From Rugalucina vietnamica (lineage: Eukaryota > Mollusca > Bivalvia > Lucinida > Lucinidae), in assembly GCA_964017185.1 (NCBI GenBank), contig OZ024869.1, positions 62,386,931 through 62,450,930 on the forward strand: 64,000 nucleotides of DNA, written 5' to 3'. Below, piece after piece: positions 13,827-61,752 of this stretch; within the stretch, counting starts at the first letter, position 1; the number at the start of each line of letters is the position of its first letter. A program made the position numbers and the translations under genes. A model generated the notes under the pieces. The model saw only the letters and a program-made list of their open reading frames with translations, was not told the origin of the DNA and did no database searches.

Positions 13827-15291
13827 AACCAGAGGACCAATGGTCCTGTAAACGCTCACCTGAGACCTGAGATATATACCACTAGAATGGTAATATACAT
13901 GTATATAACCCCAGAGCAACCTCTGGAGGCAATTTCTTTTTTAAATCATAAAGATTCAGTCCATTTGCCAATTTACTGCAAGTTTAATTTTGCCCTAACA
14001 ATTTTCCCCATTCAAATGCGTGGGCAACCTAAGTTGACCTTGCTGTAAAAAAGTCAAGGTCATCCCAGGGTCAAGATTTATACAAACTTTGTAGAGCTCC
14101 ATTGCCTGATGCTTCATGCCAAGTTTCAAAATCATAGGCCTTCTAGTTCTGGAGAAGAAGATTTTTAAAGGTTTTTACTATTTATAGCCATGGTGGCCAT
14201 CTTGGTCACGTGACCTTGACCATTTATACAAACTTTCATTCACTCTTCCTAAGAATGCTCCACATAAAGTTTGGCTTTGATTGGCCAAGCGGTTTCAGAG
14301 AAGAAGATGTTTGAATAGTATGGTCATACACATGTATATAGCCCTGGGGCAGGGGAAGACAACCCTCTGGGCCCAAAATATTTTCATAAACATAAATCTT
14401 TTGTCCATTTGCTTATTCCTAGCAAGTTTTTTGCCACTAAATGACATTTTCTTATTTTTCCCATTCAAATGCATGGGCGGCCTAAGTTGACCTTGCTGTA
14501 AAAAAGGTCAAGGTCATCCCAGGGTCATGATTTATATAAACTTTGTAGCGCTCCATTGCCTGATGCTTCTTGCCAAGTTTCAAAATCATAGGCCGCCTGG
14601 TTCTGGAGAAGAAGATTTTTAAAGGTTTTTGCTATTTATAGCCATGGCGGCCATCTTGGTCATGTGACCATGACCTTTTATATAAACTTTCTTTGCTGCT
14701 TCCCAAGGATGCTCCACGTGAAGTTTGGCTTTGATTGGCCAAGCGGTTTCAGAGGAGAAGATGTTTAAATATTATGGAAATATATATCTATATAGCCCCG
14801 GGGCAGGGGCAGACAACCCCCAGGGGCCAAAATTTTTCCATAAACATTAATTTTCTGTCTATTTGCCTATTCCCAGTAAGTTTTACCCATTTACCATTTT
14901 TCCCCATTCAAATGCATTGGCGACCTAAGTTGACCTTGCCGTAAAATAGGTCAAGGTCATCGCAGGGTCATGATTTATATAAACTTTGTAAAGCTTCTTT
15001 CTGTGATGCTTCATGCCAAGTTTCAAAATCATAGGCCTTCTGGTTCTGGAGAAGAAGATTTTTGAAGGTTTTTGCTATTTATAGCCATGGCGGCCATCTT
15101 GGTCATGTGACCTGGACCATTTATATATACTTTTTTTCCCCCTTCCTAAGGATGCTCCACATGAAGTTTGGCTTTGATTGGCCAAGCGGTTTCAGAGAAG
15201 ATCTTTGAAATTGTGGACGGACGGACGGATGACGGACGGACGGACGACGGAGCATGGCCATCCTATAAGCTCACCGTGTGAGGTGAGCTAA
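13827..15291 (-). mobile_element. HINE-like element E, uninterrupted
   Basis: The cleanest copy of the family. The left end is AACCAGAGGACCAATGGTCC then GCTCACCTGAG; the right end is a GACGGACG microsatellite, CATGGCCATCCTATAAGC, then AGGTGAGCTAA. It contains about two and a half ~450-bp monomers; GTTGACCTTGC recurs near 14033, 14487 and 14930. Confidence 0.7.
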
Positions 15292-26541: not shown

Positions 26542-26687
26542 TCACTTGTCTTTAAAGGGTGGTTTCTCTAGTTCCTCTGTAGGTAGTACTGTAAAACTGT
26601 AGTCTCTAAAGTCTACTATACACAGGCCATGAAATGCAATGTTTGATAAAACTGTGAGATACTCTCCCAGGGCAAACCAGGAATAAA
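26542..26687 (-). CDS. PGAP2: PGAP2 exon 5 (last coding exon)
   Basis: Acceptor TACTCTAATTTCAG precedes TTTATTCCTGGTTTGCC. The exon completes the codon left by exon 4 (A+TT) and encodes YSWFALGEYLTVLSNIAFHG, a membrane helix, then VDFRDYSFTVLP and a hydrophilic tail ending PPFKDK and TGA. This matches the C-terminal helix and WDF region of vertebrate PGAP2. No AATAAA was confidently placed downstream. Confidence 0.9.
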
Positions 26688-29600
26688 CTGAAATTAGAGT
26701 AAACATTAGTGAACTTGTGCTGTTGACACATATGTACATGCATTATACTCTTATGTCGCATCCAGTCTCAGATTCCCCAGTTTTCATTGATAAGTACCTG
26801 ACACAGTTCAACCCCTATGGTGAAGCCTGTCAAAGAACAGTCTGTTGAGGATAAGTGAGCATCCCTCATGATTAACATAAACTCAGTTGTTTACTGTGGG
26901 TGCAAAACAAATGAATAAAACACAAAACTTTATGTCAACATTTTGGACAAGCTGACCTGAATAAGAGCTGTCGCAAGACAGCATAGCTTGCCTGACTTGT
27001 GCTTTGCCACTAAATCTATTAAAATCTATGACCCATGACCTTGACCTCAAGGTCTCTCAGGTGGGTCGTGATGGTACAGCATAAAACTTCAGACCAATAC
27101 ATGTATCTACTAACATGCAAAGTATCAACTTGATCCATCTACATATTCAAGAGATATAGACTTATAAAAACTTTAACCCAAAATCTTTTTAACATAAAAT
27201 TTCTAAGTCTGTGACCTTGATCTCAAGGTTACTCAGGTGCTGTATGTAGAAAAGGAAGTTATGAATAAATAAATGCAGCATGTTTTCCAGTTGAATGGAA
27301 GTCCACATTCATAAGCAAAACTGTTCAGCTACATAGTCTTGCTTATAAAAAAATATACATTGTACATGTATATCGAATAGTTTCTCTAAATTTTCAATGG
27401 ATCCACTCATTTGCTTGGTATTGTTTGACGATTGTCAGGTAACGACTTGACAACTTACTTTTCGGTTCACAGTAGGTGTTATGGCGAAAATAGAGATAGA
27501 CTGACAGCAGAAATATACACAGATTCACCAGGAATAATATCACTTTGTTACATAGACAGCGCCTATCCTGAAATGAGAAAGAAGCTATTGCAACACCATT
27601 TCCCCCAGTCCCAGGAGATAGCAAGGAAACTAGCTGGGTTTTGAGGGGGTTTTTACCTTTCACAGACCCTTCAGGAAATATCTGGGGTTTGTATTATAAG
27701 GACAGTAAGGGCAACACAATGTAAATATAGCAGACTGCAAGGGAAAATGACCTTTTTTACCAAATGACTGTCCCTGTAGTGTGTGGGGGGTTATGGCAAG
27801 GGTTTGCTGGAGAAAAGTCGAAAGTTCCTGCTGGGGCGGGGCACTGTGGGGTGACAAATGACTAGAGCATAAAATCTGCATTTAAATAGACAATTCTGTG
27901 CTTAGTCTAAGATAAGAATATATAAAATCAGAAATACAACCAGAGGACCAATGGTCCTGTAAACGCTCACATGAGATCTGAGATATATACCAATAAACTT
28001 GTTTGACTGTCAACTTAGTGTCAAGGTCATCTACATGTACATTGTATATAGCCCCAAACAGAGTCAGAATACCCCTTGGGCTTCATTTCTTTTTCAAAAT
28101 CATAAATATTCTGTCCACTTGCCCATTTCCTGGAAGTTTTTCCCTTCAGTGTCATTTTAAGAGTTTTCTGTATATGTGATCTATGTTGACCTTGCCGTAA
28201 AATCTGCATTTATACATACATTGAAGTACTCTACTGTCTGAACACCATCTTTTCAGAAACTGCATTTTTCGAAATCTCACTTTTCTGAAAGACTTCAAGA
28301 AAAATATAAGCATGTCACCATTTTGCATTCCAAAAGTCTTAAAAAGTGCCACAAAAACTTTGAAAATCGGTTAACAAATAAAACTTTTATGCAAGAAAAT
28401 ATTACTGAATAGGGCTTTCTTTCATTGTAAAATTGCCAGCAAGGGAAGTAACTATTTTCCCGGAAAAAAATCTAAATTGATTATTTTCTACTAAATGCAC
28501 CAAACCAAAACAAAATTGTTTTGTATGCAGAGCTGAGCAACAAACTCTTAAAATTATTCCACAGATTTGCTTGATTTTCAGTTTTTAGGGATTTGGATTA
28601 GCTCCCTTGCACATGCAAAGTGCCTATTCAAAATGATTTTTGGGCATAGTTATTTTATTAGTGAACCGATTTTCAAACTTTTTGCGGCACTTTTTAGGAC
28701 TCATGAGTTGCAAAAAGATGGGGCATGGTCATATTTTTCTTGTAGTGTTTCAGAAAAGTGAGATCTCGAAAAATGCAGTTTCTAAAAGATGGTGTTCAGA
28801 CAATAGTCTTAATTGCTACATATCATTTTTTGTTGCAATAGGTTCAGCATTTCCTGAGAAGAAGATTTTTGAAGGGTTTTTACCATATATGGGCATGGCG
28901 GCCATCTTGGTCATGTGACCTGGTTTATTTATAATTACATTTGTTCCCCCTTCATACAGATGCTTCCTATAAAATTTGACTTTGATTTGCCAAGTGGTTT
29001 AAGATAAGAAGATCTTTGAATATTATAGTTATAAATTAGTCCCGGGGCAAGGCCAGACCCACCCCTGGAGTCCAAATTGTTTTCAGAATCTTACAAACAT
29101 GCAAAAACCAGCTTAGCAATTCACAAGTTTCAGACATCTCAAAATCAGTTGTCAAAGACAATAAATTGACAGTCCAAACAGTCAAACAGGTACACTTTAA
29201 ATATAGAAAAAGTTGTTTATTTCTTTAAATAGCCAAAAGCTGTCAAACAATCATAAATATAGAAAAAGTTGTTTATTTCTTTAAATAGCCAAAAGCTGTC
29301 AAACAATCATCTTGAACTTTTTCATTATTTTCAAACAACCAATGAAATTTTGAAAAGAGAAATTAACATCTGTCAATTCCAGCTTACTGTAACCAATCAG
29401 AAATATATAAGGTGATGATGTACATTTCCATGTTGAAACTTGATACAAATATTAGATAGGAAATGTCAATTTCATCTTTTTGACAACTAGTTAAGAGACG
29501 CTTGAAACACCTGGATTGCTAAGCTGCTATTTGCCTGGTTGTAAATCTCCAGTTCATTTACCCATTTCATTCAAGTTTTGCCCTTCAAATCACATTTTAA

Positions 29601-32600
29601 CAATTTTACTCATTCAAATGCATGGGCGACCTGTGTTGACCTTGACATAAAATAGGCCAAGGTCATTCCAGGATCATGATTTACATAAACTTTGTAGAGC
29701 TCCATTGCCTGATGCTTCATGCCAAGTTTCAAAATCATAAGCCTTCTGGTTCTGGAGAAGAAGATTTTTAAAGGTTTTTTGCTACTCATAGCCATGGCCA
29801 CCATCTTGTTCATGTGACCTTGACAATTTCTATAAACTTTCATTTCCCCTTCCTAACAATGCTCCACATAAAGTTTGGCTTTGATTCACACTGGTCCGCT
29901 GTTCATAACAGTAAACTAAAACTCTGCACAGCGAACTAACCTGTAACAGATAGGAAATTAAAAAAATGGCGGATTTGTTGGGAGCGAATCGGTTCGTAAG
30001 ATTTGTTTATTTATTATGAGCTTCTCTTTTTGTTTATCCACACAAAATATATGTTACAGACCAATAAAACTACTGTATTATGTTTTTAGATTAGATCTAT
30101 ACTTTCTAAAGGTAACGCCATATTTATTTTTAATGCTGATCACAACTTTGACGGGTGATTGCAAAAGCAAGCTTTTTGTAGGTCATCGTGAAGCAATGCC
30201 TATTTTGTGGCTCAAATTCGACAATTAATGGTATAATTTCTTATTGCAAACAGAGGCATTGATGAATTATAACGATTTAAACCAAAATTTTTGTAAAATG
30301 TCATTTGACAGTAAAGTTATCGATAATTTTTCATTACAACATATTCCACACCTAAATAAACACAACGAAGAACCAACTAAAACTTTTTAAATTCGGTAAA
30401 ATAATTTCATAATGACCATTTATGTTGCATTTCAAGTTGCGTTGACGTTCTCTTATGTAATCTAAAACCAGAGTTCTGATCTGACCTGGCCCAAAACCTA
30501 ACACAACCTTTCCCCCTCCTCAATGATGCTTTAGATAAAATTTGATCACGATTGGTCTTGTTGTCTTAGACATATTCAAGTTTGAAAATGTGAACGGATG
30601 GACGGATGGACACACACACGCACGGACACCGGCTCAATTACTATACTATGAGCTCACCTTGTGAGCATTCGGCTCAGGTGAGCTAAAAATAATGTTGTTA
30701 TAAGCTGGAGCATTTGTAAAATTTCTCTTTTTGTTCAGTATAGCTTGAATTACCTTCTGTAAAACCAGATGAAACAGTAGGCTTTTGCCTTGGAGTTTAC
30801 ATGTGTAATTGTATGTTAAAATGTTTAACATTGATCCATTGAAGGTCAGTGTTGATACTTACAGCCTCTGTGACATTGATATATACAGCCTCTGCGACAT
30901 TGATATATCAATGTTGATACTTACAGCCTCTGTGACATTGATATATCAGTGTTCATACTTACAACCTCTGTGACATTGATATATACAGCCTCTGCCACAT
31001 TGATATATCAGTGTTGATACTTACAGCCTCTGTGACATTGATATATCAGTGTTGACACTTACAGCCTCTGTGACATTGATATATCCAGCCTCTGTGACAT
31101 TGATATATCAGTGTTGATACTTACAGCCTCTGTGACATTGATATATCAGTGTTCATACTTACAGCCTATGTGACAATGATATATCAGTGTTCATACTTAC
31201 AGCCTCTGTGACATTGATATATCAGTGTTCATACTTACAGCCTCTGTGACATTGATATATCAGTGTTCATACTTACAGCCTCTGTGACATTGATATATCA
31301 GTGTTCATACTTACAGCCTATATATCAGTGTTGATACTTACAGCCTCTGTGACATTGATATATCAGTGTTGATACTTACAGCCTCTGTGACATTGATATA
31401 TCAGTGTTCATACTTACAGCCTCTGTGACATTGATATATCAGTGTTCATACTTACAGCCTCTGTGACATTGATATATCCAGCCTCTGCGACATTGATATA
31501 TCAGTGTTGATACTTACAGCCTCTGTGACACTGATATATCAGTATTCATACTTACAGCCTCTGTGACATTGATATATCAGTGTTCATACTTACAGCCTCT
31601 GTGACTATAAGAATCTTACATGAGTGTCAGGTATGGATAGACAAATCTGTCCTGAGGGTCACATTTTGGCATCACAAGAAACTGTGACCCAAGGGACAGA
31701 TTTGTCTATCCATACCTTACACGCATGATGGATTCTTTTTCTTGCACGCCTTAATCCGGCGAAGCTTGATTTTAATACTATTTCCGGCGAAGCTTGATTT
31801 TAAAACTATTTCCGCCACTTTCAATTAGAACGTTTTGACATCCTTGTGACGTGTGCGCTTGGCGGCGAAATTACGTGACGTCCTATACAACCAATGTTAA
31901 AAAAGAACACTTGAATGCAGGATTTCTCTATCTAGTGTGCAAGAAATTGATATATCAGTGTTTATGCTTACAGCCTCTGTGACATTGATATATCAGTGTT
32001 GATACTTACAGCCTCTGTGACATTGATATATCAGTGTTCATACCTACAGCCTCTGTGACACTGATATATCTCAGTGTTCATACTTACAGCCTCTGTGACA
32101 TTGATATATCAATGTTCACACTTACAGCGTCTGTGACATTGATATATCAGTATTCATACTTACAGCCTCTGTGACATTGATATATCAGTGTTGATACATG
32201 TACTTACAGCCTCTGTGACATTGATATATCAGTGTTGATACTTACAGCCTCTGTGACATTGATATATCCAGCCTCTGCGACATTGATATATCAGTGTTGA
32301 TACTTTCAGCCTCTGTGACACTGATATATCAGTGTTGATACATGTAGTTACAGCCTCTGTGACATTGATATATCAGTGTTCATACTTACAGCCTCTGTGA
32401 CATTGATATATCCAGTCTCTGCGACATTGATATATCAGTGTTGATACTTACAGCCTCTGTGACATTGATATATCAGTGTTGATACATGTACTTACAGCCT
32501 CTGTGATATATCAGTGTTGATACTTACAGCCTCTGTGACATTGATATATCAGTGTTGATACTTACAGCCTCTGTGACATTGATATATCAGTGTTGATACT

Positions 32601-35600
32601 TACAGCCTCTGCGACATTGATATATCCAGCCTCTGTGACATTGATATATCAGTGTTCATACTTACAGCCTCTGTGACATTGATATATCAGTGTTCATACT
32701 TACAGCCTCTGTGACATTGATATATCAGTGTTGATACTTACAGCCTCTGTGACATTGATATATCAGTGTTGATACTTACAGCCTCTGCGACATTGATATA
32801 TCAGTGTTCATACTTAAAGCCTCTGTGACATTGATATACATGTATCAGTGTTCATTCTAACAGCCTCTGTGACATTGATATATCAGTGTTGATACTTACA
32901 GCCTCTGTGACACTGATATATCAGTGTTCATACTTACAGCCTCTGTGACATTGATATATCAGTGTTCATACTTACAGCCTCTGTGACATTGATATATCAG
33001 TGTTGATACTTACAGCCTCTGTGATATTGATATATCAGTGTTAATACTTTCAGCCTCTGCGACATTCATATATCAGTGTTCATACTTACAGCCTCTGTGA
33101 CATTGATATATCAGTGTTCATACTTACAGCCTCTGTGACATTGATATATCAGTGTTCATACTTACAGCCTCTGTGACATTGATATATCAGTGTTCATACT
33201 TACAGCCTCTGTGACATTGATATATCCAGCTTTATGGCTCCAGTATATGAGACAGCATGACAACAGCATGTACACTTGTGAACACACTATGAACACAATA
33301 AATGAATTCTCATGTATAGCTGCAAAAGAAAGAAGAATTGTAGAAAACTTGTTTTCAGGGGGAAATGAATACTAAAAAAGAGAGAAAATCCAGCTTAATT
33401 AGCAATGATGATCCTCCACAATTTTAGACCACAAATAAAGAGGACACAGTAATATTCATAAGGTATACTGCAAATAAAACATTAAACAAATGTGGAATTG
33501 TGAAATTTATCATTGAAGTCAACAGGTGAATATCAGCTTTTCATGTCCTTCATGTTGTATACGTATTCAAGCTGTTCTAAGTTCTAAGTTTTAATTTTTA
33601 TTTGCTATTACTGCAGCTGGTGTTGTGCCGTGTGGCGACCCTAAAATGTCTACCCATTCATCATCCATTGTGCAAATTATATTCTCCTTTTGATCCTTTG
33701 AGATCAGAGAGGGTATTCTGAGAAATCAGAAAATTATGTCAGACCAGTCAAGATGCATTTTCTGACCAAAATTTGATATACGTATTTGGCCCTATGTGGA
33801 TAATTAACAACCCTGCTGAAAGTTGCAAAATAACAGTAATTTTCTTTGGCTCCATGTTGCCAAATCTAAAGGGTCACTGATGAAGCTTACGTAGCAGAAA
33901 CAATGGTATGGTCCATCACATTTCTCATTTTTACCTGGACCTCTTTATAACATGGTTCATTGAAAAACGGTTGTGGATATAAAACGGGTCATGGCTGGAC
34001 AAACAATGGTTATTTTAGACTAATTTTGCTATATATCTATACATTTTACTCTCATTATAACACGGACTGGATAGTTAACACGGAAATTGGCTTGGACCCC
34101 AACAATAGTGTTATAAAGAAGTTGAGGTGTACATGTATATGCTCACTGCTCTTAAAGGTAAAAGTAGGCAATGATCAGGAAAGGTTAAATCAGAAAGAAA
34201 TTCCCACTCCAAAACTGAGATGGGGAAAAACTAAATTAACAATCATGTACTTATACCAAGAAAACATAGCGTAAGCCACGTGAGCAGCTATTTCCCAATA
34301 GGCAGCCACTCAGTTACCCAAATTTAAAAATATGAAAACTTACATAAGGAGCAAAGAAACAGCACAAAAATTCAACACCAAAACATAAAACAGTTAGAAC
34401 CACAACAGAAGTATCGCCTTGGAACGATCAGTTATATAAAATCACTGGCGGGCTTAACCTAGTTGTCCCCCGCCTTTTCGAAGAAAAGCGGAGGGACATA
34501 GTTTTTGGCTTTCCGTCATTCCGTCCCTCCGTCTGTCCATCCGTCCGTCTGTCCTTCCGTCCCCCTATAGAGTATGTACCTTGTGTGCGCAACTCCTCCA
34601 ACAGTTTTACTCCGATTCTTTTGAAACTTTACAGATGATTTTACCATCCTTTGAAGATATGCATGTGGTTTGGATATAATCCTCAGATTAATTTTTCACA
34701 CTTTTTTCTCAATTTGAACTTAGTCATTTTTGGAGCATTTTGACAATGAAAGCGAATGGACAGTGGGTACCTTGTGTGCGCAACTCCTCCTACAGTTTCA
34801 TTCCGATTCTTTTGAAACTTTACAGATGTCTTTACCAGGCTTTGAAGATATGCATGTGGTTTGGATATGCTACTCAGATTAATTTTTATTACTTTTGCTC
34901 GCAATTTGAACTTAGTCATTTTTCGGTCATTTTGACAATGAAAGTGAATGGACAGGGGGTACCTTGTGTGCGCAACTCCTCCTACAGTTTCATTCTGATT
35001 CTTTTGAAACTTTACAGTTGTCTTTATAATGCTTTGAAGATACGCATATGGTTTGCATATAATCCTCAGCATATGAACTTAAGTCATTTTTTCGGCATTT
35101 ACACTTAGAAAGTTCATGTGGCTTCTCAGATTATATTTGTGTAACTAAACAATCAAGGCGGGGGACATAAATTCTTTGAATTTGCTTGTTTTACAGGATC
35201 CTTACCTCACCCTCAGCTTCTGCATTGGTTCACAACATTTAGTTAGTTATTCAGTCCTCATGGTGAATCTCTAACTAGTCAATGAATCATCAAAGACAAA
35301 TAAATCATGTTAGCCACCACGATGAATCAAAAACGACGACTCACAGATACAATAAGCTGCCTGGCGTGGCCAAACAACATTACTGAAAATCTGGAGCAAA
35401 AGAAAAACACCATTTGAACACCGGTGGGCCAACCAACAGACAAGAAGCTCCGGCCCCAACGAACTAAAATGACTAGCTTTAAGTCGGGGCCATCATAGAA
35501 TCTAACTCTCGACCCACCGGCGTGCAATTAAAGAAGGCAACATAGTTATCAACCAAGATTGGGTTAAGACTGTCACACTATAACATTTAAGTTATCTAAG

Positions 35601-38600
35601 TTAAAGGATTTGTATATACATTTTAAAGATTGCAAATATAAACAAAATTTAAAATCACTTTTTGGTATAAAACTGACTGTTTTGAGAATTTCATTATACA
35701 CGTACATGTATTTCTTCAGACATCTACACACCTTAAGTATAGTGCATAAGTTTGGAAATGCCAGAAGGTGATCAGAGAGACAGAATTGTCATGCTTATCT
35801 GCAAGTGAATGATGGATTCTTTTTCTCGCACATCTTAAGCAGCAAGGCTTGATTTTTCCTCAACTTAACCACTGAAATCAAGCGGTTTTGATGTCGTTTT
35901 GACGTCAGTGCTTAATAAAGAAGTATAACCAAAGTTGTTTTCATTCTTTAAAATGATGTCATTCCTGTGTAAGATATGGATTTCTTAATCATTATTCAGG
36001 GTAAAATACATGTACATGTAATGGATTTTTGTATCTGGTGTGCTGGTGTGCAAGAAAAGAAGGTGTAACACACACTTTGTGACAGCAAGACTTTAATTTA
36101 TGAACAATTTAATTCCTTCTCACTTTCTTCATATCTTCTTTCGTTAAATTTTATTTTATTTATCAAAGTTTAGGAAAACTTACTAAAATTTTCTGTTGAG
36201 GACACACAAGTCAAAGTGAGCAGTGCCAGGTTTTCAGCTATATGGCATCCAATTGCCACCTTCACCAGCCTCTGGTAAACAGTCTTATGTTCTCCCATGT
36301 TTATACTAGTCAGCCAGTGATAGTAGCACCCCACTAGCAGAAATCTCAGCCCCAGCTGTAGGGCGATACAGATCCGCCATACATATCTCTGAGGGGTAAA
36401 CCCTCCAATAGCAGCACTGATGGATGGTAGGAAATTATACACCTGAAATATATGCAGACGGGTGCCAAATCAACATAACATAACAGGGAAGCTTTTTTTA
36501 TTTTTTTTAATTCAGTTTTACATCCCTTTCAAGATTATTTCCGCTCATATGAGACGGGCCAATCAGTAGGTGGGAAAAAACGGGAGAACCCCAAGAAAAA
36601 ACACCTGGCACACCGGCAAGCAGAACTTCGCTTGTCTCACATGTGGCCAGTACGAGGCTCGAATCCACACAAGTCACAGTGGTGAGATGATCGAGTGAGT
36701 TTAAGAGACAGCGCTCTTAACCGCTCAACCACGGGGGCTGCTTAGGGAAGCTTTTATCTGTAGAAGAGTCCTCTAAAATGAAATTTCAAGCCTCCAGTTA
36801 CTATGACCTGAAAAGTGGCCTATTTCATAGAGTAGGTGAGAACAGTTGAACCACAGGATATGAGCCTCTGTGTGAGAAAACCAACAATTTGATTTCCGAC
36901 CAGGTCCGACACAAACTAGCCTGTATAGTCACAGAAGATGGGTAGAGGCTGGAAATTCAGGATTTACAAAGTAGAGGCATTGTATTATCCGTGTAGCGAA
37001 AACAAAGGCGCTGATCAGCTTCGCAGTTACTGCAAAGCTGATCTGCGCCTTTGTCTTCGACTATGCAGATTGTTGGTTTTCCCATGCTGCGGATCATATA
37101 TGCTCCCCTTAAGTTTATGAATCAGCTACAGACTTAAGTATTAGATTTTGGTGTGACCATGTGAGATGGCAAATCCAAGATGTGCCAGGAAAACAAGAAT
37201 TATCCGACAAGAGAAAATTTGCAACACTCCAAAGCTAGATCTTGCCATTGTTGATGAACATATGAAATTTGGTCACATCTCTCAATTTATTCTCAAAATA
37301 TTGAGCAGAAACCAAATTCTGACATCATTCAGGGGCTGAAACTATCATCCACCATGCATGATCCTAATAATATTACCTCTATACTCAATAAGTGACCACT
37401 AGACTGTGTGTATAAGAAGGAAAATTTCCAAATCCTTCAAATGTGGTCCAGTGCATAAATTTATAAGTTAAAGGGATGCCAGTTCACTTAATGAAACTGA
37501 TTTTATCTGTGACCTAGAAGAACAACCATGGTCAGTGATGAATATTTTTGATTATTTTACTACAACTTTAACTCAGTTCTAGATAAATATGCACCTAAAA
37601 AGAAATGGAGAGTAAAAAAATCAAAGCAGCCACATTGAATGAACCATAACATAATGGCTGCACGGAGAACAAGAGACTCCATAGACAAATCAAACAACAT
37701 GGCTGAATACCAGTTGTGGAGAAACAGAACCTCCTGTCTCATTCACAATACTAAGAAAGAGTTCTATTCCCAAAGTATAAATGATAATTATAAAAATCCA
37801 ACATGCCTCTGGCAAAATTTGCATGATGATACTCATAAATCATTAAAACAACAAACAAACTTCATTCATGATAATCATGGACATCCTATCCTAGATCCTG
37901 AAACATCTGCAAACCATTTCAATGAGTTTTTCACATCTCTATATAAAGACTTAAATCCTGATGATACCAGACAAACTACAATCTGTACTAAGTTAAAAGA
38001 GGTGACCACCGTGGCCTGTGGCCGAGTGGTTAAGAGCGCTGATAGTTCATTACCGCACCTAATCATTCAACCATCTCACTGCTGTGTCTGGTGTGGTACG
38101 GGTTCGAACCCCATACATGGCACATGTGAGACAAGCCAAGTTCTGCTTGCGGGTGTGCCAGGTGGTCTTTCTTGGTGTTCTCCTGTTTTTGCCCCACCTA
38201 CTGATTGGCCCGTCTCATATGTCGAGCTGAAATAATCTTGAAAGGGACGTTAAACTGAATGAAAAAAAGGAAAAAGGTAAAAGACTTTGTAGATGAAAAA
38301 GTGCCTGATGGTACAGAGTTTGACATTCCCCTTGTTTCTGCATCATTTTCTGCAAAGTCAACAAGGCCACGGGAATAGATGACAGAAGTGCCAAAAATCT
38401 AAAATTATCTGCACCTGTCATATCTCAGCCCCTACTGCATGACATTTATAACTATAGGCCTACTTCCGTACTCCCGATTATTACTGGCATTTCTGAATGG
38501 CATATCAGCACATGCTTGATAGATTTTCTAGACAAGCATGGGCTTTATATATGACAATTAGTCTGGCTTTAGATTTTCTAGACAAGCATGGGCTTTATAT

Positions 38601-41600: not shown

Positions 41601-44598
41601 TTTGCATTTATGCCTGGAAGTGCCGTATTGCCGGTTCGTAGAATTACCAAAACACACCAAAACACCGGAACACACTGGTAATTACCAAAACACACTTATT
41701 TTATTGGTAATTGGAAATGTGTAATGGCACAGGTGTCAGTATAGCGAACGGGAAGAGGTATGAGGTATTAACATTATATAAGGCTTCTTTCATAGTGTCA
41801 TAACTTGATGATAAGGTGTTAATTTTCGACATTATATGGCTTCTTTCATGAAGAGGAGGGATGGGGTGAATGGTTGGAAGTGCACGTGTAATTATTTTGG
41901 ACATCATAATGCTTCTTTCATAATGTATAGTGGTCCTGAAAAGGACCGTTTTTGAGACATTTAATCTCGGGAACCGCAGAATGTGAGTCTTATTCTAAAG
42001 AAGTATTTTCGAAGGCCACATTTTTTGCTGTCTTGTGTTGGTTCTGACAAATGGACCTTGTCGCTGTGGTAGTCTCTAGGATATCGTATGTCATGGAATT
42101 TGATGACCCGCGTGCCGTATTCCTTGAACAGTAACTTGTTTATAGCTTTTTTGTCGCTGTCGAACTTTGCTTATGTTAGACCGCGGGGTTTACTTTTTGA
42201 AAAATCGCCTCGTGGTAGAATTTCTGAAATATACACTCGACGCACGTCAGTTTCTTCTAGCTTTTCTACCAGGTCATGGATGTTGTTGAAGATGACTTCT
42301 GGATGGGAGATGGGACTGATGTCGTTGCCGCCGATGGACAGGAAGACGTAGTCAGATTTTGCAGCGGCTTGTTTCATTTTTTTTTCATAGTATCGTCGAG
42401 TTCGTCGCAGCGCAGCCCCCCTTGTCAAAGAAATCTCGTAGGTCCCGGAAAATGAAGGTCGCCGTCGCAGAAGTTCTGTAGCCTCTTGACGTATTTTTAC
42501 TCCAAAACATTGATTGTGGGTACACGTTAGAAACGCCTCGGCGAGGCAGTTCTAACGTGTACCCACAATCTATGTTTTGAGCAAAAATAAGAAAAATATC
42601 AAAATTTTTAGCTGAAAATTTTCAATTTTTAAAGCTTAAAAAAACTGTTTATCGCATGTGTATGTTTTCGTAATGCAGATGACAGTATATAATGTTCCCT
42701 CGGCGAGGCGGTTCTAACCCACAATCTATGTTTTAAGCAAAAATATTAAAGATATCAGAAATTTTCCGCTAAAAATATCAATTTTTTATGATGAAAAATT
42801 CTCTGTATATTGCATGGGCATGTTCTTCGTAATGTTCGAACCACAAGTAACGTTTGACGCTTTAGGCATGTACGAATATTAGGTACATGCACATCTTGTA
42901 CATATGCTTATTTCTTTACATACAAGTATTACATGGACATATTTTTGTAATGATTCGTTCTTTCTTTTTTTCTGTCTGTCTGTCTTTCTTTTTCTTTCTT
43001 TCTTTCTTTAAATATTGTAACATATAACTCATCTTAAGCTTAAAATTCTGTCTTAAAATTCTATCTTGACCACAAAAACCATCTGTATCAAAAATAAATG
43101 CTTGAAACGAATTTTTGACGGCAGACGTTTTAGTATTAAATTTGTGAAATATGTGTATTGGGTGTCATTCGAGTTACTGAAAGGTGTTGCAGACCATTTA
43201 TTACCTGTGTGTATTCAAGCTCAGACTGTTTATTACCTGGCACGTGACTAGTGTGTATCCAAGGAGTTATATTTTAGGACACTGATTTAGCCATGGGTAT
43301 TCTTTAAAATGCTACCGTTTACATTTCTAGATGTCTACCGAATTCAAATTTTATATTTTAAATAACCAAATGAAATTTTACATGTTAATATATACTTAAA
43401 TGCAAAAGAAACGCAACAATTTACATCCTCGTCTTCTTCTACAGTATTTAACGAAATAGTATGATTTCTAATCAAAGAGTTCATCTCATCATACTCATGC
43501 ATCTTGCACTCGTGCATTGTGTGTGCGAGTATGCACCGTATTTTTGCAATGAGCAATGATATTTTCGTTTTGTTTTTTTTTGTTTATTTTCAGCTAAAAA
43601 AAAATCTGTATATTACATGGGCAAGTTTTTTCAGTCGCGTCGAGACGCTGAGACAAAATTGTTTATGGTATTTAGGTGTCTTATATATGTATATTGCATG
43701 GAGGTTTTTGTCATGGGCTACTCGTTTGAACAGCCTCTACCAGGCGGTTCTAACAAGTACCCACAATCAATGTTTGTTATAAAATATCCGTTTTTCCGAT
43801 GAACTTATCATTTTTTACAGCTAAAAATCTCTTATTGCATGGGCAAAATTTTGTTTTGTCTTTTTGGTTTAACGTATTGACTTTACTAACTTACATGCAA
43901 TGTTTATCTTTAACATTTCTTTTAATGTGGAAGCCATATTAAATACTTCTTGAATATATAAATATTTCTAAATTTCACTGTGATACCTATCATTACGAAA
44001 ACAGGCCCATGTAATATAAAGGTTTTTCTTGTGATACCTATCATTACGCAAACAGGCCCATGTAATATAAAGGTTTTTCTTAAGTTGTAAAACTTGAACA
44101 TTTTCAGTAGAAAATTTTTGATATTTTTCTTATTTTTGCTCAAAACATAGATTGTGGGTACACGTTAGAACCGCCTCAGCGAGGCGGTTCTAACGAGTAC
44201 CCACAATCTTTGTTTTGGAGCAAAATAAGAAAAATAGGTATACCCCTGCATACCCCAGTTTTACTATATAAAAGTGGGGTTTAAGGGGGTATTCATTGCA
44301 CGGACATGTTTTTCTGGTGACTTTTATAAAACAAAGTTGTTTGTTTTGGGACTTTTTCCCCGATATTTGTATACACATACACTACAGTGACAAAGAACAT
44401 CTGTACATATTTTTGATTCATTTTTCTCAATTTACAGACTGACACTCCTTATTATTTACTGTGCTTATTATGATACTTGTGATACACTGTTGCTTACCTG
44501 TACTGAACATTGCTTATTTGCTGCTTTTTACCATAGTGTTCTACATAATTTGATTTTTGAATATACATGTACATTGTTTTTTATATACACCCTATTGT

Positions 44599-44672
<74 letters not shown>

Positions 44673-47600
44673 TAATTCACTGATTAAATGAATATAATAA
44701 AATAAATCTTTAAATCATTTGTTCGTTTCTCTTCTCACCAGCTTCTTCTATTGTGCACATGGCTCCGCAACTGGAGGCACCCAACTCTAGATCTAGCTAC
44801 TCTGCAAATTTACTGGAAACGCATATTAAATGATCGGATTGTACTATGCGCTTTTCTGACCAAGGATATTATACCAAATTTAAATGTAAATACATTAAAA
44901 AACATGGGGATGCTAATTAGGCTGCACAGGTTTCATTGTTGTAAGGCCAATCTGATCAGGTAAGCCAATTACCACGGTACATTAATAATGTCAACAATTT
45001 GATGATAGGGTGTGAAAATCAATAACAATTAATTATATGCAAGGCAGACCAAAACACACCAAATAAATAATATTTATCACACTTACAACTGACATCAATC
45101 AAAAGAGAATATAACTTTTTATCATCTGAGTCTCATAAATATACTACAGTACTAGATAACACAAAATATAAGTGTGTTTTGGTAATTACCAGTGTGTTCC
45201 GGTGTTTTGGTGTGTTTTGGTAATTCTACGCACCCGCCGTATTGCTGTTTTATCGCATTTTAAAACATGGTTCTGTTGAACAACGACTCTCATCGCTACC
45301 GCACTGAGATGGCTGGAAGAAATAATGGATGTGACTGGATTCAGGGCGTACATTTTAAAACGGCGAAAACGGGTAACCAGCGATCAAACCGAAAGATTAG
45401 TAACCTCTGATTGCTTCAGACTTGATTGACCATTGAAAACAAGCGGTCCAGTCACATGGCACTTGGGATTTTGTTGTGTGAGACATGATTGACCAATGAA
45501 AACAAGCAGTCCAGTCACATGGCAAACGGGATTTCGGGGATCATTTCCTTTACTGTAAACAACTGTGGCCATCTCAGTGCGGTAGCGATGAAAACCGCTG
45601 TTTAACAGACGATTTTGTGGGTATGCAAGGGAATATTTAAATGCTTTCTGTGTCCGTTTGAAGCGTAATGATTCCCGGACATGCTGATATATATAAGATT
45701 CTTGTAAGTTACGGATTAGTGAATCAGTTTGTCTTTTCAAAGTGACGGTCGTTTTTTTCTCTACATTCAGGATGGCACATCAGTATTTTGATTGCTTTCT
45801 ATAGATTTTGTGCAAACAAAAGAAGCAAAACCCAGGACCAAAAGGGCGGTCCTGAACCATCCCTTGAGAATTTTGATCATGAATTGTCAGTCAATTAAAA
45901 ATAAAAAGGCTGAAATTCACACTGTCATAGAATCGGCTAAACCTGACATCATATTGGGGAATGAGTCATGGTTAACCCCAGACATTAAAAACTCAGAGAT
46001 TTTTCCAGATTCCTTTGATGCTATCCGGAAAGACAGAGCTAGTGATGCGCATGGTGGTGTCTTCATTGCTTTTAGGCGTGATCTTCTCTGTACTGAAGCT
46101 CCGGAATTGGACACCAAGTGCGAAATAATTTGGTGTAAGTTGAACATTATTGGATGTAGGACTTTGTACCTTGGATCATTCTATCGTCCCCCTAGGTTCC
46201 CAACTCAGGAGCTTGAACTGAAATATCTTGAGGATTTTAATACTTCACTTTCTCGGATTATGTCAAATAAAAATGCCCATGTTCTTGTAGGCGGTGACTT
46301 CAATTGTGGTGATATTGAGTGGAGCACAATGCAGGTACCCGAGGGGGTCAAAAAGAGGCCAGTTCAGACTAAACTTGTGGACATAATACAGGATCACTGC
46401 CTCTCCCAAATGGTAAATATACACACCCGAGAAGACAAGACCCTTGATTTACTCTTCACTAACTCGCCATCCCCAATTAACCGTGTTAAAGGGATGCCCC
46501 CGATCGGCAAAGCAGATCATGACATTGTCTATATTGAATATGACATAAAGGCTAAACGGATTCAGCAGGCCCCGCGTAAGATTTTCCTATATAAACGAGC
46601 GGATATGGACGGTCTCCATGACCATCTAGCGCGCTATAGGGATTCGTTCCTTTCAACTGACCATAGTCAGGTGTCAGTCAATGACATGTGGGTCAGTTTT
46701 AAGTCGGAGGTTCTCTCGGCTATTGAAAGGTTTATTCCATCAAAAATGACCAAGACAAAATATAGCTTACCATGGATCGATAGCTCGATCAAACGCTTGA
46801 TAAGGAAACGTGATAAACTTTACTTTCGTGCTCGCAAGTCAAGCAGCCCTGACATTAAGAACCATTACAAACGGTTCAGAGCACATGTTCAAAAGAGCAT
46901 TAGAGATGCATATTGGAAGCATATTACCAATATCTTCTCCTTTGAAAATGATAACCCTGATCCCGATTGTCCCCGAAAAAATGAAAAGGCAAAAAAGTTT
47001 TGGTCATTTGTCAAGTCCCTTAAGAAAGACGCGTCTGGGATCAATACTCTTAGAGAAAATGGTATCTTGAAGACTGACACTTTGGATAAGGCTAATATTT
47101 GTAATAGGCAGTTTCAGTCAGCCTTCACTCGCGAATCAGATGATGAAATCCCCTCCAAAGGCACAAGTCCTTTCACCGCTATGGGTGAAATTACAGTTGA
47201 CCCCAATGGGGTCATTAAACTCTTGAATAATTTGAATATACATAAGGCGCCTGGGCCAGATGGCCTGAGTGCTAGGGTGTTGAAGGAATGTAGTTCTGAA
47301 ATTGCTCCTGTACTGACCTATATCTTCAATGAGTCGCTTGCTCAGGGTGCTGTACCAGACGATTGGCGACAGGCAAATGTAGCCCCGGTATTTAAGAAAG
47401 GTGAGAAATACGATGCAGCTAATTATCGACCGGTGTCGCTTACTTGTATCTGTTGCAAAACTCTAGAGCATATAATAGTCAGCAACATAAACAAACACTT
47501 GGCTCTTGAAAACATTCTTGCTGACTGTCAGCATGGGTTCCGAAGTCAAAGGTCTTGCGAAACCCAGTTAGTTCAGTTTTATCATGATTTGGTTAGTAAT

Positions 47601-50600
47601 CTGGACCGAGCAGTGGGTCGTGGCCACAGGCAGACGGATGTGATTGTTATGGATTTCGCTAAGGCCTTTGACAAGGTCCCACATAAAAGGTTATTATACA
47701 AACTTGACTTCTACGGGATTAGAGGATCTACACATAAGTGGATCGACTCGTGGCTCTCTGAGCGCTCTCAAAAAGTGGTATTAGATGGCCGTGCCTCAGA
47801 TCCAGTCCCGGTTCTTTCTGGTGTCCCACAAGGATCGGTCTTAGGACCGGTCCTATTTCTTATTTTCATTAATGATCTTCCTGACAACATCAGGTCATCT
47901 GTTCGGCTATTTGCTGATGATTGTGTTTTATACAGAAATGTCAAGTCACCATTGGATTGTCAAATTTTACAAGATGACCTGAATAGCTTGGCCAAATGGG
48001 AAATGGATTGGCAAATGAAATTCAATGTTAGCAAATGTCATTCAATGAGGGTGACGCGGCTACATCCAAGCAGGCATATAGATTTCAATTACACACTGCA
48101 TCAGCAAACATTAGAACAGGTTCAGTCCGCTAAATACCTCGGTTTAACTATCACAGATGATCTTGATTGGGGTCAACACATTTCTGAAATTACATGCAAG
48201 GCAACTAAGACTTTGGGTTTTCTTCGGCGCAATTTGGCACTGGCACCTAGGCATACTAAGGAAGTTGCATACAAAACATTGGTTCGGCCTCAACTTGAGT
48301 ATGCAGCTCCTATTTGGCATCCCTATCATGAAACTCAGATTGAGATGGTGGAGAAGGTGCAGAGGACTGCTGCCCGGTGGACCTGCAGGCGATGGAGGAA
48401 CACCAGTAGCGTCGGTGAAATGCTAGATGAACTTGAGTGGCCATCCCTGGAGTCTCGCAGGGAGCGGTCCTCCTTAACCTTCTTCTACAAGATACACTCC
48501 GGTACAGTGTCTCTTGATAAAGACAAATACCTGACCCCGGCACCCAATCTAAGGCATACTCGGGCATCACATGAATCACAATACACAAGACCATTTGCCT
48601 ATAGTGATGCCCTGAAAAATTCCTTTTTCCCCAGAACTATTCCGGTTTGGAATAGTCTCCCTTCTTCAGTGGTCCTATCTAAGACCATTGAGGAATTTAA
48701 GGCTTCTATTTAAATCATTAGCCCAGAGGCATGCGTTTTAGTATGCCTCTCATCTATATCTTGTAAATAGTTTTAATGGTCCACCCCAAATGTTTTATTT
48801 TCCCTTGACTAAATTCTAAATTTAGCCACCCACCCCACACCTGAGGTGATGATCAGAAATTGATCGACTCAGTATCAGAAGATAGATAGATAGATTCTAG
48901 ACATTTTTTTCTAATTTTGCAAGGTCACGACTATTGCAGAAAAGCTCAAAAAGATAACAAAAAATATAATTGTAAGTTTTGAAAAAAAAAAGTACAAGTA
49001 TGAGCTTTTGAAAAAAGTCTAAACAGTAACCCCAACTTATTTGTGCCCTGCTTAAATAAAGCTTATACTTGTCTGTTTGTTTGTACTGTAAATAAACACG
49101 TACGCGACAAGCTGTTCGTACAGAAGCTTCATAGTCATATAAAATCGACCATACAATAGCAAAAACAGGTGCACACTAATCGGTGGGATCCTATGTTGAA
49201 TTATCCGGGATCCAAGGAGGTAGTGTCATGTCATCATCAATATCTCAAGTATTACTGATCAGATTTTTATGATTTTGGTATCATATTAATTTGAATGCTC
49301 TGATCTAAAATGTGACATAATCACAAATCGAAAAAAATTAATTTGAATATGTTAATTTTGCATTTGAAAATTCCGGGATCGCTGAAAACCGCAACTCTGG
49401 TCCAGTGAGTAGTGTTACTTCCACATTAATATCTCGAAAATTTCTCATCAAAATCAAATCTTTTTTATGTCATAATAATTTGAATGCTATATTCTAGCAT
49501 ATGAAATAAAGAAAAAAGAAAAATATTAATATTTAATATGTTAAATTTGCATTTGAAAATTCCGGGATCGCTGAAAACCGCAACTGGGATTCAGTGGGTA
49601 GTGTTACTTCTACATTAATATCTCGAAAATTTCTTATCAAAATCAAATCTTTCTTATGTCAAATTACATTGAATGTTGTATTCTTGCATATGACATCAAC
49701 AGAAATGAAAAATATTAATATTTAATATGATGAATTTGCGTTTGAAATTTCCGGGATCGCTGAAAACCGCATCTGGGATCCAGACGGTAGTGCTAGTTCT
49801 AATAATAACTCGATTATTTCTCATCAAAACCAAATAATTTTTATGTCAAATTACATTGAATGCTGTATTCTTGCATATGACATGTACAAAAATGAAAAAC
49901 ATTAATATTCAATAGGTTTGATTTGCGTTTGAAATTTCCGGGATCGTCACAAACCGCATCCGGGACTAATTCTACATTGATGCTTGTTTAATGTTTTCGA
50001 CCATTGCACATAAAATGTTGAAAAAATGACATAGGACTACAGAGAAAACAATTTTTTGTAGCTCAATGCATGAATTATGATTTTGGTAGCTTGACATCTT
50101 AAGTTCCTAAGTTTACATGATCGTCTGTGTGTATAAATATAAATGAGCCGCCGCATGGGAAAACAAATAATTTGCAAAGGCGAAAACAAAGTCGCAGAAC
50201 AGCTGTGCAGTAACTGCATAGCTAATCAGCGCCTTTGTTTTCGGTGCACGGATAGTACAATCCGTCTTCTTCTTAAATCCGAAATTTCAAGCTTATAGTC
50301 TGTGTCAGTGAATGTACAGGGTGGTTTGTGTCGGACCTGGTTGATAAAGACATTTTGTTTTCTCACGCACAGTCTCTGTTTAAATATAATTTATTTGGAT
50401 AAGATTTCGCGATTTCAACTTTAATTTTTAATTTGAATGGAATAACAAAGTCGCTTATCAGCCTACACGGTCGATACTCGCTTTTGTTATTCACAAGTCC
50501 GAAAACCTTCCGTTAGCCGTATAATATAGAAACATACCATAGCGATATGGTTCTGCATTATCCGTTGCCCCCTGCTCACCGCGGGGAGGTGGAAGTTGAG

Positions 50601-52927
50601 CACGATTTTTTTTTTTTAACCGATAGCACTTTCACAAGTCCACTTATTATGACAATGGCATGACACATCGATGAATTTCTGAAGAATATGGGTTTAAACA
50701 CTTCCTTATTTGCACTTTCACTACACTGAAAAAAAGTTATAAGAGGCCACCTCATATTTTGTCTTCTAGTTCAGAAAGTAAAATACGATCAATTAAAATT
50801 CATGATCATATGAATAAACCAATGTCTAACAGTGGCTCTGTGAGTTTCTGCATTCCAAAATGCGTGATACTTCTCACACAGACGAAGCATGTGTAAAGGT
50901 ACCCTATTTCAAAAAGTCACACTTTATTAACATCAAATTAAATGTCATATTATGACGTTGTGTTTTTACATTTTAATTTATTTGAAAGTGCTACTGACTG
51001 CCATGATGCAAGATAAAATTAAGTCAAAAGTGTTGCTGCAATAAGAATCTTCGTTTTTGTTTTGCACATGCAAGAAGACAACAACCTGAATAACAGGAAT
51101 TCAGCTTTTGTATGCAATTTGCATACCAACTTTGTTCTTCTCCAGTTGCGTTATTATCAGCAGCACGGCATTGAAATTTTCAGCGATTATTTAGGTCAAA
51201 TACTAGACTCTGATAAACTTTGAAAATTAAAAAAATCGTCCACAAATTTTGTTATTTTGTTCGATAAAAATTGGCATTGAAACCGGAAGTGTGCGGCAGC
51301 CTTGACATGTTGGTCCTCGAAAATGGTCAAAAACAGTTATGTCGAATTATATCTCTCATTTCCAGGCCTCATCAAGTGAATTTAACAGGGGTCAACATGT
51401 TTAAGAGGCACATTTATGAATTTTTCAAAAAATCTCAAAATTGGCGATTTTTAAAAATGCATAAAAATTCTACCAGTAGAGAAAATTCGAATGTTTGATG
51501 TTTTTCCGAGCCGTAACGACCCCTTTGATGACACCCGTTCCTAATTTCAATAAATGGTGTGCTGTATCCAATTTTTTATTTAAAAACATTGATTTTTGCA
51601 TTTTTACTCCAAAAACGCCTTTAGTAAAAGAAAATTATTTCTTAACACTTTGGAACTTTACTTACTGAAAAACACGTCTTTTGGCAAAAAATTGTGCAAT
51701 TTTGAACTTGACTTAGAAACAAAAAATGAGTTTGAAAAGTGGCCTCTTTATAACTTTGTTTCAGTGTACTTCACTTATTATTATAATTGAGCCGTCTCGT
51801 GAGAAAACCAACAATCTGATTTCCGGCCATGTCCGAAACAAACCGGTAGCTAGAGGTTTTTGAAGTAGAGTGATTCCACTATCCATGTAGCGAAAACAAA
51901 GGCGCTGATCAGCTTCGCGGTAACTGCGAAGCTGATCTGCGCATTTGTTTTCGCATATGCATATGTTGGGTTTCTCACGAGGCGGCTCAATTATGTTTTT
52001 TTTGGAAACCATATTGTCTATGCATTCTGGCATTTTGCATCTACACCATATAGGAATTTTTACAACTTTACATGTAACAGAGTCCAGTTTAGATCTTCCT
52101 CTCACTGTTTCCTTGGGAAATGGTGTCATGTTTCCGCGTTCAAGGCATTCGATTAGATGTTCTCTCATTTTTGACACTGTGTAACTTACTCTAGTATTAA
52201 AACCATTTGGGTTAAAACAAAACTCCACAACATTTGCAATTGCGAATAATCCACAATCATACGAATTCGGTTGTTGTTGAACACGAGGAACCTTAACTTG
52301 AAGGATCGATGACGAAGTCCTATAAATCTGGGATAATTGAATCTTAACATTATTTCTCAAATCCTTCAAATTTGCACCTAAACTGTCTATATAGTAAACA
52401 CAATTTTCATCTTTATATGACGAGAAACTCATTGTCCAATGGTTAGTCCCATCGAAATGTAACTGAACACTTGGCGTAACCTGTTCCTTAAATTGTCTGT
52501 TAGAATACCCACAATCTATGTTTTGGAACAAGCAACATTCCGACTATATATTCTGTCAATTATTCTTATGTCTATCGCATATGAATCTTTACATCTTCTT
52601 ATATCTTGTATAATAATAATAATTATTTCAATCATATAAAAATGTCTAGTTAGGCATGTCGTGTGCAAGGGAAAACAGTATTTGCATGTATCGTATTTTG
52701 ATCCAGAAAATATATGCCTATGAAAATTTGATCAGTCTAAAACATTATGCCACGCTTCTTTAAGCTGTTTGTGCTAATTTGTCACACGGACCATTAACTC
52801 TGAAATGACAATTATCATGGATCATTAATTTCTATGTGGAAATTAACGACCCGTAAAAAATAATTGCTTTAGAATCACAAACATTATTTAATGAATTTCA
52901 CATTTATTTTGTACGTTTATAACATTT

Positions 52928-55143: not shown

Positions 55144-55258
55144 TTTAGGTTGGTGGTTAAAGGCACGAACTATTGATAGGAATACTCAATCGCCGTTCTG
55201 TTGAGAGTCGGTGTGCTCGGGGTAAGGGTCGGTCTTTTTACCGCAGGATACCGCAGGA

Positions 55259-57275
55259 TTGCCCAGGATACCGCAGGATACCACATTTTCCCAAAATAAA
55301 GATAAAGCTACTTTGTTAAATAAGCAATTTCAGTCAGTATTTTCACAACTTTCACCTCTTAAACTCCATCAACTATGTATAGATAAACTTCAGGATTACT
55401 TCGCTGTTCGCATTCCTAAGCAGTTCCAGTGTAATTATCCTAAAATGCCGGAAATTAACATTGATCAGAATGGTATTCTCAAATTATTGTCAAAATTAAA
55501 ACCAGATAAAGCAGCAGGTCCAGACGGAATCAAGCCTATAGTCCTGAAAGAACTTAGAGAGGAAATCACACCCATTATCCAACTGCTTTTTCAGAAGTCT
55601 CTGTCCACTGGTAACATACCCACTGACTGGAAAAAAGCTAATGTGAGCCCGGTTTTCAAGAAGGGAACTAAAAGTGATCCAGCCAATTATAGGCTCATCT
55701 CCTTGACATGCATACTATGCAAGGTGATGGAGCATATAATTGCTTCCAAACTAACGTACAGCATTTCAACCAGTCAGAGATATATCTTTATCTCAGAACC
55801 AGTATAATATCCTCTACGATCTCCAGCACGGGTTCAGAGAAAGGAGATCGTGTGAGACTCAGCTCATACAGCTTGTTGAAGACCTGGGCAGACAACTAGT
55901 AGACGGTAAGCAAGTTGACCTTGTCCTACTTGATTTTAGCAAGGCATCTGACAAGGTCAGTCACTCCAAACTCCTATTCAAACTATCACAGCATGGAGTG
56001 AAAGGTAACACTCTGAACTGGATGAGCTTTTCTTGTGTGTCGAACCCAGGCTGTAGTGCTGGCAGGGGAGAGCTCATCTGAGGTCCCTGTGACATCTGGC
56101 GTGCCTCAGGGATCTGTTCTTGGGCCTCTTCTCTTCTTGCTTTACATTAACGACCTGCCACAAAACATCCAATCTCAAGTCAGACTCTTCGCAGATACCG
56201 CTGTATACCTAACTGTTGGCTCTTCAGATGATAGGGATATCCTCCAAGCAGATCTCGATACTCTACAGACTTGGGAACATGCTTGGGATATGGAATTTAA
56301 CCCAAGTAAGTGCCAGGTTCTCCATATCACAAAACAAAAACAACCTTTAAATACCCAGTACACCCTTCATGACCAGGTACTCGAGTCGACCAACACTGCT
56401 AAATATCTCGGTGTAACACTTTCCAAAGATCTCAGCTGGAATGAGCATATCAGTTCAATAACTGCCAAAGCAAATGGGACACTCGGATTTGTTAAACGTA
56501 ATGTAAAAACCAATAATCCAAAAGTAAAAGAACTGGCATACAAAACTTTAGTCCGCCCCCAAGTCGAATACGCCTCCCCACACAAAAGAAAACATTAATA
56601 AAATTGAAATGATCCAAAGAAGAGCAGCTAGGTGGGTAACAGTCAATTTCTCCTCATATGATAGTGTTTCCAATATGTTGTGTGAGCTTGGTTGGAGATC
56701 ACTGGCCGATAGGCGGATTGATGCTCGCATGATACTGCTATATGAGATAATAAATGGGTATGTTGCCATTCAACTACCATCATACTTTGAAAGACCCACG
56801 AGATACACTCGTCACATGCACCCTCTTGCTTTCAGACAGATACACACTGGCGTAAAGTATTATCAGAACTCTTTCTACCCTGCATCGATTGTTCTCTGGA
56901 ACAGACTTCCTTCTGAAGTTGTCCTACTGGATGATCTTGACTCCTTCAGGAGAGGAGTCAGTAAGATCACACACTCACTACCATAATCTTATACACTGTT
57001 TTTAACCTCTTTTAACTTCACCTCCTCTTCACTAACACTATGTCTTTTTAAATCAAGTCTCACTATTGCACTTTTAAATCTCCTATAATCTTGCTTTTAT
57101 TCTAGCACTGACAGCGCAACTGCACATAATACTCGTAAGAGGGTGCTGCAGTATGAAAAGATAGATAGGATAGTGCAGGATAGTGGACTAATTTCTCCCC
57201 CATCCGAACCCCCTGGTGAAATAATGTCATTTGGCGTGTCACCAGTAAACTATTCAGATTCAGATTCAGATAGTT
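55259..57275 (+). pseudogene. 5'-truncated Jockey/CR1-like LINE
   Basis: Starts within ORF2 (MPEINIDQNGILKLLSKLKP, KAAGPDGIKPIVLKEL, DWKKANVSPVFKKG), then LVLLDFSKASDKVSHSKLL, GVPQGSVLGPLLFLLYINDL, a C-terminal part (RRAARWVTVNFSS, YPASIVLWNRLPSEVV). Frame changes near 55780 and 56030 and about 56590 break it. The catalytic FADD is reduced to FAD-T (RLFADTAVYL), so it is dead. The 3' tail ends in ATTCAG repeats at 57256-57275. The left junction has four GATACCGCAG-like repeats (55238-55283). It lies about 115 bp from the PGAP2 ATG. Confidence 0.88.
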
Positions 57276-61174: not shown

Positions 61175-61720
61175 TTCAATATTTCGGCCAAAGGCCTTTT
61201 TCAAGAAAAAAAACATTAAACTTCCACTGCTTTTACATTTTGACAGTCTACCATTACAGTATGTTATTCCGACGTCATGAATGTCTAACATAACGTCGCG
61301 CACAAATGTGACGACGTCATTCCCGTACTTTTGCCTTGTGGTACCAAAATGATACTGAAATATCACTGTCTTTCACGTTACAACCATCTGGACGGACAGT
61401 ACGAAGCTCCTTGATCCACAGTCCTTCTCTCAGTTGTCTCTCTGTTCTTTCAGCGTTGTATAGCTTCTCCAGAACAACGAAGCCCATATCTAACTGCGAG
61501 TGTTCTCCTTGGTTGAAATGAACATTTATCGGCTTGTCCCGTCGAAGGCGCACATCTCTTAGATGCTCCGTCATCCTTTCCCTTAACTGCCGTTCTGTTT
61601 CCCCGACATATACTGTTGACTTACAGCTGGTGCAAATGATCCCATAAATAACGTTACGTGACTGGCAATTAATGTCCGAGACCGGAGTATACTTGTTCAG
61701 CGAATCTGTTGCTGCAGCAG

Positions 61721-61752
<32 letters not shown>

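Follow-up and report, generated by a model that had tools for sequence, protein, structure and literature searches.

How could an exon-intron junction become repeated dozens of times within the very intron that it opens, and which of the resulting splice donors would then be used? This question is raised by a Frag1/PGAP2-like gene on the minus strand of a 64,000-nt window of contig OZ024869.1 of the lucinid bivalve Rugalucina vietnamica (contig positions 62,386,931 to 62,450,930; 37.6% GC; positions below are those of the window). From the sequence alone, and with a probability of roughly 0.75, we read the array that follows exon 3 as a mirage-type minisatellite (a tandem repeat that spans an exon-intron boundary) founded at the exon/donor junction, of which the exon-proximal donor would mainly be used while the minority of products from decoy donors would likely decay.

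The minisatellite comprised 56 units of 38-bp and 24-bp types, which we delimited by splitting at the CAGAGGCT landmark. As the initial annotation of this window had proposed, the 38-bp unit consists of the 23 terminal bases of exon 3 followed by the first 15 bases of intron 3, that is, the donor and the intron bases after it, and the repeat lies on the minus strand: a 24-mer spanning the junction had 50 matches in the window at three or fewer mismatches, all of them on that strand and between 30855 and 33219, with 0 expected (100 shuffles). The end of exon 3, GCTGGATATATCAATGTCACAGAGGCT/GTAAGTATGAACACT (slashes mark splice boundaries), leads uninterrupted into further copies of the identical 38 bases, so that the exon does run directly into the array. 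The range first assigned to the array, 30840-33319, encloses it but also takes in the whole of exon 3 (Table 1).

Unit lengths (n = 56) were 38 bp in 40 units, 24 bp in seven, 44 bp in four, and 40, 32, and 27 bp in one each; one further unit reached 378 bp with an insert inside it, and one was terminal. The donor position was present in 49 units; the array, originally described as one of approximately 50 copies, also contains seven donor-less units, all of 24 bp, and the 340-nt insert. GTAAGT was kept at 42 of these 49 positions, the authentic donor included, and GTAAGTAT at 38, which upholds the description of dozens of near-identical donors in intron 3. The remaining seven positions read GAAAGT (two), GTTAGA, TTAAGT, GTAACT, GTAGGT, and GTAAGC. 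All 42 GTRAGT sites of the intron fell within the array and 0 in its remainder. As in a mirage, the unit crosses a predicted exon-intron boundary and the splice signals stand in many, although not all, of the units.

The insert, unrelated to the repeat and located between CAAT and GTCA of a single unit, looks like a small mobile element. The arms of its inverted repeat occupy 31609-31667 and 31679-31737 and are 85% complementary. Separately, approximately 90 nt of the insert resembled 35768-35856 at 75% identity.

Tandem arrays are, as is generally known, often mis-sized in assemblies, and the authors of work on amphioxus mention one aberrantly assembled mirage (PMC3087553; here and below, statements on published systems follow extracts of the cited papers). 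The size or position of the present array might likewise be an assembly artefact. However, point changes and indels distinguish its units from one another, one of them contains an unrelated insert, and on the exon side the array adjoins coding sequence with no gap, which makes such an artefact very improbable.

The exons around the array, with boundaries predicted from sequence, form a coherent gene. Specifically, exons 2 to 5 joined into one open frame of 209 codons, with compatible phases from exon 2 through the stop codon, CAG at the end of all four acceptors, and GTAAGT at all three donors; intron 3 measured 5,636 nt. The joined product matched the Pfam family Frag1/DRAM/Sfk1 (PF10277) at 138.2 bits against a curated cut-off of 30.3 (E 3.9e-40). 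For exon 2 alone, a 96-aa reading that extended a few residues upstream of the acceptor gave a Frag1 match with an E value of 5.2e-16. The profile speaks for the family, within which we take the gene to be PGAP2 by presumed likeness to the human protein (e.g., TIHENxFIVFI). A pattern scan for exon 1 gave ten matches, none of them convincing. The PDB sequence search, made with a preliminary 170-aa query that began a few residues upstream of the exon 2 acceptor and was wrong in one residue where exons 2 and 3 join, returned no match, and neither did a search for the Frag1 family in the lambda record and 14 control genomes, from which its absence there does not follow.

We consider it most likely, as was first suggested, that the exon 3/intron 3 donor junction founded the array, given both of its flanks and the exon-type junction within the 24-bp units. 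The repeat starts at exon base -23 and has exon on one side and non-repeat intron on the other, where the distal last unit reads AACACTGA and is followed by CCTTCAATGG. With the flanks as observed, a single-copy ancestor can be derived, in which the exon would have read ...GGATATATCAATGTCACAGAGGCT/GTAAGTATSAACACTGACCTTC... and the founder junction in single-copy form GAGGCT/GTAAGTATSAACACTGACC; a 2-base GA is common to the two breakpoints. Additionally, the exon-type junction CTGGATATATC occurred once in the exon and five times in 24-bp units of the array; the minus strand contained no further copy, and the 38-bp units lack it. The other two 24-bp units carry CTGTATATATC. In the exon, the corresponding 24 bases sit between two GCTG repeats. 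A CTG-mediated deletion from a 38-bp unit was rejected as the source of the 24-bp units, as its product, GGCTGATATATC, occurred 0 times. Because CTGGATATATC is of the exon type and GGCTGATATATC did not occur, the 24-bp units look exon-derived.

The simplest reading of this arrangement would be two duplications, both from the end of the exon. A short tandem duplication, extending from GA at exon -23 to GA at intron +16, would have copied 38 bp across the donor, and a further 24-bp duplication inside the exon, between the two GCTG repeats, would have produced the donor-less units. Both types could then have been spread to 56 units and homogenised by unequal exchange or slippage. The anatomy of the units, the two flanks, the exon phases, the donor count, and the product predicted for each donor are read from the sequence; how the array was founded, in which order, and how it expanded are what we infer from them. 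Searches for relatives returned 0 matches for a 21-mer of the unit and for the joined protein in viral_contigs, and 0 for a 39-mer in genome_contigs; both collections consist of contigs from viruses and prokaryotes, and absence from them says little about animals.

Between a point 20 nt inside exon 3 and position 30700, an open in-frame product was predicted from five GT sites, namely four weak exonic sites (U1 scores of -1.3, -2.8, -4.0, and -2.1 kcal/mol) and the authentic donor (-7.3 kcal/mol); the donors of exons 2 and 4 scored -5.6 kcal/mol each. No GT site of the array beyond the first yielded such a product, as had been claimed, although the in-frame TAA invoked earlier for the second donor acts from the third onward, and the second fails by frameshift. 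Use of donor 2 would add 38 nt, shift the frame, and meet a stop that lies 81 nt upstream of the final exon junction, and products from donor 3 onward include one common in-frame TAA (33164-33162). This was read from the products of 22 of the candidate donors, the other donors all lying downstream of the TAA. With stops so placed, the 50-55 nt rule would make the decoy products targets of nonsense-mediated decay.

No adjacent feature marks the first donor, and position would therefore have to decide. Exon definition would most likely run from the pyrimidine-rich acceptor of exon 3 (80% pyrimidine over 20 nt; 65-80% among the four acceptors of the gene) to the first donor met, which is both the closest to that acceptor and the first transcribed, so that the exon-proximal site would mainly be used. 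The next one to three donors probably serve a minority of transcripts, whose frameshifted or stopped products nonsense-mediated decay would likely remove, and the other decoys are most likely near-neutral intron sequence. This account of splicing is, in its entirety, deduced from the DNA. A different use of the units, recursive splicing, would treat each 38-bp unit as CACAG/AGGCT/GTAAGT, with a 5-nt micro-exon and a branch-point-like CTGAT motif; the required motifs are found in the consensus unit, but the 20 nt upstream of the internal CAG are 50% pyrimidine, below all four acceptors of the gene, and we regard this as extremely unlikely.

Selection on the decoy donors was not detected among the 40 exact 38-bp units of the 56, when column 17, a G/C polymorphism, was left out: minor bases took up 6/320 cells in the donor columns versus 22/1160 in the others (odds ratio 0.99), with a 95% confidence interval, 0.33-2.54, that is wide and units that share ancestry. 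This result bears on the possibility that leakage to the decoys sets the output of the gene, with U1 engaged on many donors, a large share of the transcripts destroyed, and the length of the array tuning the level of PGAP2. In its favour stand the 42 GTAAGT sites, 38 of them in the authentic-type GTAAGTAT; the 40 array GT sites with U1 scores at or below -7.3 kcal/mol, against -5.6 kcal/mol for the donors of exons 2 and 4; and the frameshift from donor 2 and the common TAA met by later donors. However, donors are not depleted near the exon, where the four exon-proximal units all retain GTAAGTAT, the donor columns lack a signal of selection, and amphioxus mirages are said to splice normally (PMC3087553), such that we hold large-scale leakage to be unlikely. 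The tuning of PGAP2 output by copy number, put forward in the initial annotation, thereby gains no support from the present results. A bolder reading would be that a working animal gene with 37 decoys of the same GTAAGTAT as the authentic donor nevertheless uses the first one or, should leakage be large, that the length of the array is a heritable dial of PGAP2 through nonsense-mediated decay; this is tentative and, in our estimation, unlikely.

Several results weigh against a junction-founded array spliced mainly from its exon-proximal donor. Of the other 48 units with a donor position, 36 carry GCT/GTAAGTAT just as the first does, and the predicted accessibility of the first donor was low, ranking 39 of 42, which leaves accessibility unsupported as the reason for choice of the first site. 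A U1 score of -7.3 kcal/mol is not rare either, given that 73 sites outside the array, in addition to the 40 array GT sites, reached it among the 3525 scored on the minus strand, by a score that is not anchored on GT. Duplicated-donor minigenes often favour the intron-proximal site, which here would favour the decoys. In DOK7, where two unequal donors lie 11 nt apart, the intron-proximal one was preferred, and the upstream site was less suppressed when a copy of the stronger site was put there (PMC5585400). With respect to origin, the viral_contigs and genome_contigs searches gave no orthologue showing the single-copy state, and the last eight codons of exon 3 raised the Frag1 match by only 2.2 bits (138.2 vs 136.0) and left the profile range unchanged, such that the family profile alone is no proof of where exon 3 ends. 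This small contribution would agree with a minisatellite that began in the intron and only afterwards provided the end of the exon or took its place. Yet the distal flank is consistent with an exonic founder, as is the exon-type junction seen in the 24-bp units, and human PGAP2 too shows a V-x-x-x-D-R loop at this place; an intronic start appears quite improbable.

The initial annotation further knew of no earlier minisatellite that an exon/donor junction had founded, but amphioxus mirages (PMC3087553) and the donor minisatellite of Turri et al. 1995 precede this one. In amphioxus, tandem repeats spanning exon-intron boundaries in Adh3 and globin genes were given the name mirages and reported at both 5′ and 3′ boundaries, with Adh3 units of 10-72 bp and regular splicing said to be undisturbed (PMC3087553, with Canestro 2002 as a reference within it). 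The Rugalucina repeat resembles them in that its unit crosses the boundary. Unlike BflGb6 (3 or 6 units of 150-160 bp, acceptor side) and BflGb9 (donor side, described as a duplicate, 157 bp; PMC3087553), the array lies on the donor side with 56 units and 42 intact GTAAGT sites. The minisatellite of human IFI6 (6-16/G1P3) described by Turri, Cuin and Porter 1995 is closer in offering multiple splice donors, and two of its downstream repeat units are said to be used as donors, giving three mRNA species (via PMC4526556). Some leakage to the nearest decoys in the Rugalucina gene is to be expected because those downstream units are said to act as donors. The IFI6 unit is reportedly 12 bp long and in frame, with extra donors leading to longer isoforms; in contrast, every extra donor of the present array is predicted to destroy the product.

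Minisatellites located at exon-intron boundaries, as here, are also reported from human segmental duplications, where they alter splicing; these are short (mean 30-bp unit, four copies) and RNA-supported as forming new introns (PMC2812944). Likewise, tandem duplication supplies splice sites in the Rogers model, in which introns are gained through tandem duplication of AGGT segments and a fission-yeast case has repeated 24-bp exonic units (PMC4974935), whereas in Rugalucina the copied segment is the junction of a pre-existing intron, and a new intron is not evident. No mollusc case turned up in the open-licence papers, which were not queried for molluscs by name. The Rugalucina array is thus of a known kind, and it stands out by how many of its donors are intact, by its location on the donor side, and by the predicted breaking of the product by every decoy. 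It suggests that boundary-founded minisatellites occur beyond amphioxus and human IFI6, and it is unusually rich as such cases go, with dozens of near-identical donors in one intron and a single productive choice. If the proposed splicing is true, the gene would be a natural test of exon definition and transcription order overriding donor strength, and the flanks and 24-bp units record how such an array may begin.

Table 1. Positions of the gene, the array, and other features in the 64,000-nt window.
Feature	Position	Strand	Details
Exon 2, Frag1/PGAP2-like gene	36184..36442	(-)	259 nt; end TTTTA/GTAAGT, phase 1
Exon 3	33204..33319	(-)	116 nt; CAG/CTATACATG ... GAGGCT/GTAAGTAT, ends phase 0
Exon 4	27459..27567	(-)	TTTCAG/GATAGGCGC ... 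CCGAAAA/GTAAGT
Exon 5, coding part	26542..26687	(-)	TGA stop at 26544-26542
Minisatellite	30846..33226	(-)	56 units, 38-bp and 24-bp types; one insert inside
Exonic part of first repeat unit	33204..33226	(-)	last 23 coding bases of exon 3
Authentic donor GTAAGTAT	33196..33203	(-)	exon-proximal array member; only strong GT site with open in-frame exon 2-3-4-5 product
Distal-edge non-repeat intron 3	30801..30845	(-)	AACACTGA (end of last unit), then CCTTCAATGG; other flank of inferred single-copy ancestor
Insert in one unit	31606..31945	(-)	340 nt; 59-nt inverted repeat
Reverse transcriptase and gag-type aspartyl protease	97..1521	(-)	retroelement pieces within 97-2869
Open frame beside these pieces	1440..2366	(-)	no match
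Long-unit tandem array	14001..15201		454 bp x 2.7
97-aa frame around histone stem-loop	41704..41994		no Pfam match
Histone 3′ untranslated region stem-loop (RF00032)	41906..41952	(-)	38.9 bits vs cut-off 34
973-codon open frame	45792..48710	(+)	endonuclease and reverse transcriptase domains
Ulp1/C48-type protease match	51764..52543	(-)	E 1.4e-05
Retroelement-like frames	55226..56983	(+)	RVT_1 match at 56026-56595, none at 55226-55804
GIY-YIG domain	61320..61793	(-)	22 vs 22.6 bits, slightly below cut-off
Long-unit tandem array	62856..64000		166/331/497 bp, reaching window edge

Additional features were noted elsewhere in the window (Table 1). For the frame around the histone stem-loop, no wider histone-gene search was made beyond Pfam. 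The subthreshold GIY-YIG domain might belong to a Penelope-like element, which is a guess. A AGCTCACCTGAGC-type repeat, of a kind associated with bivalves, had ten occurrences at one mismatch or fewer. Finally, the 973-codon frame is possibly an intact element of the non-long-terminal-repeat type.
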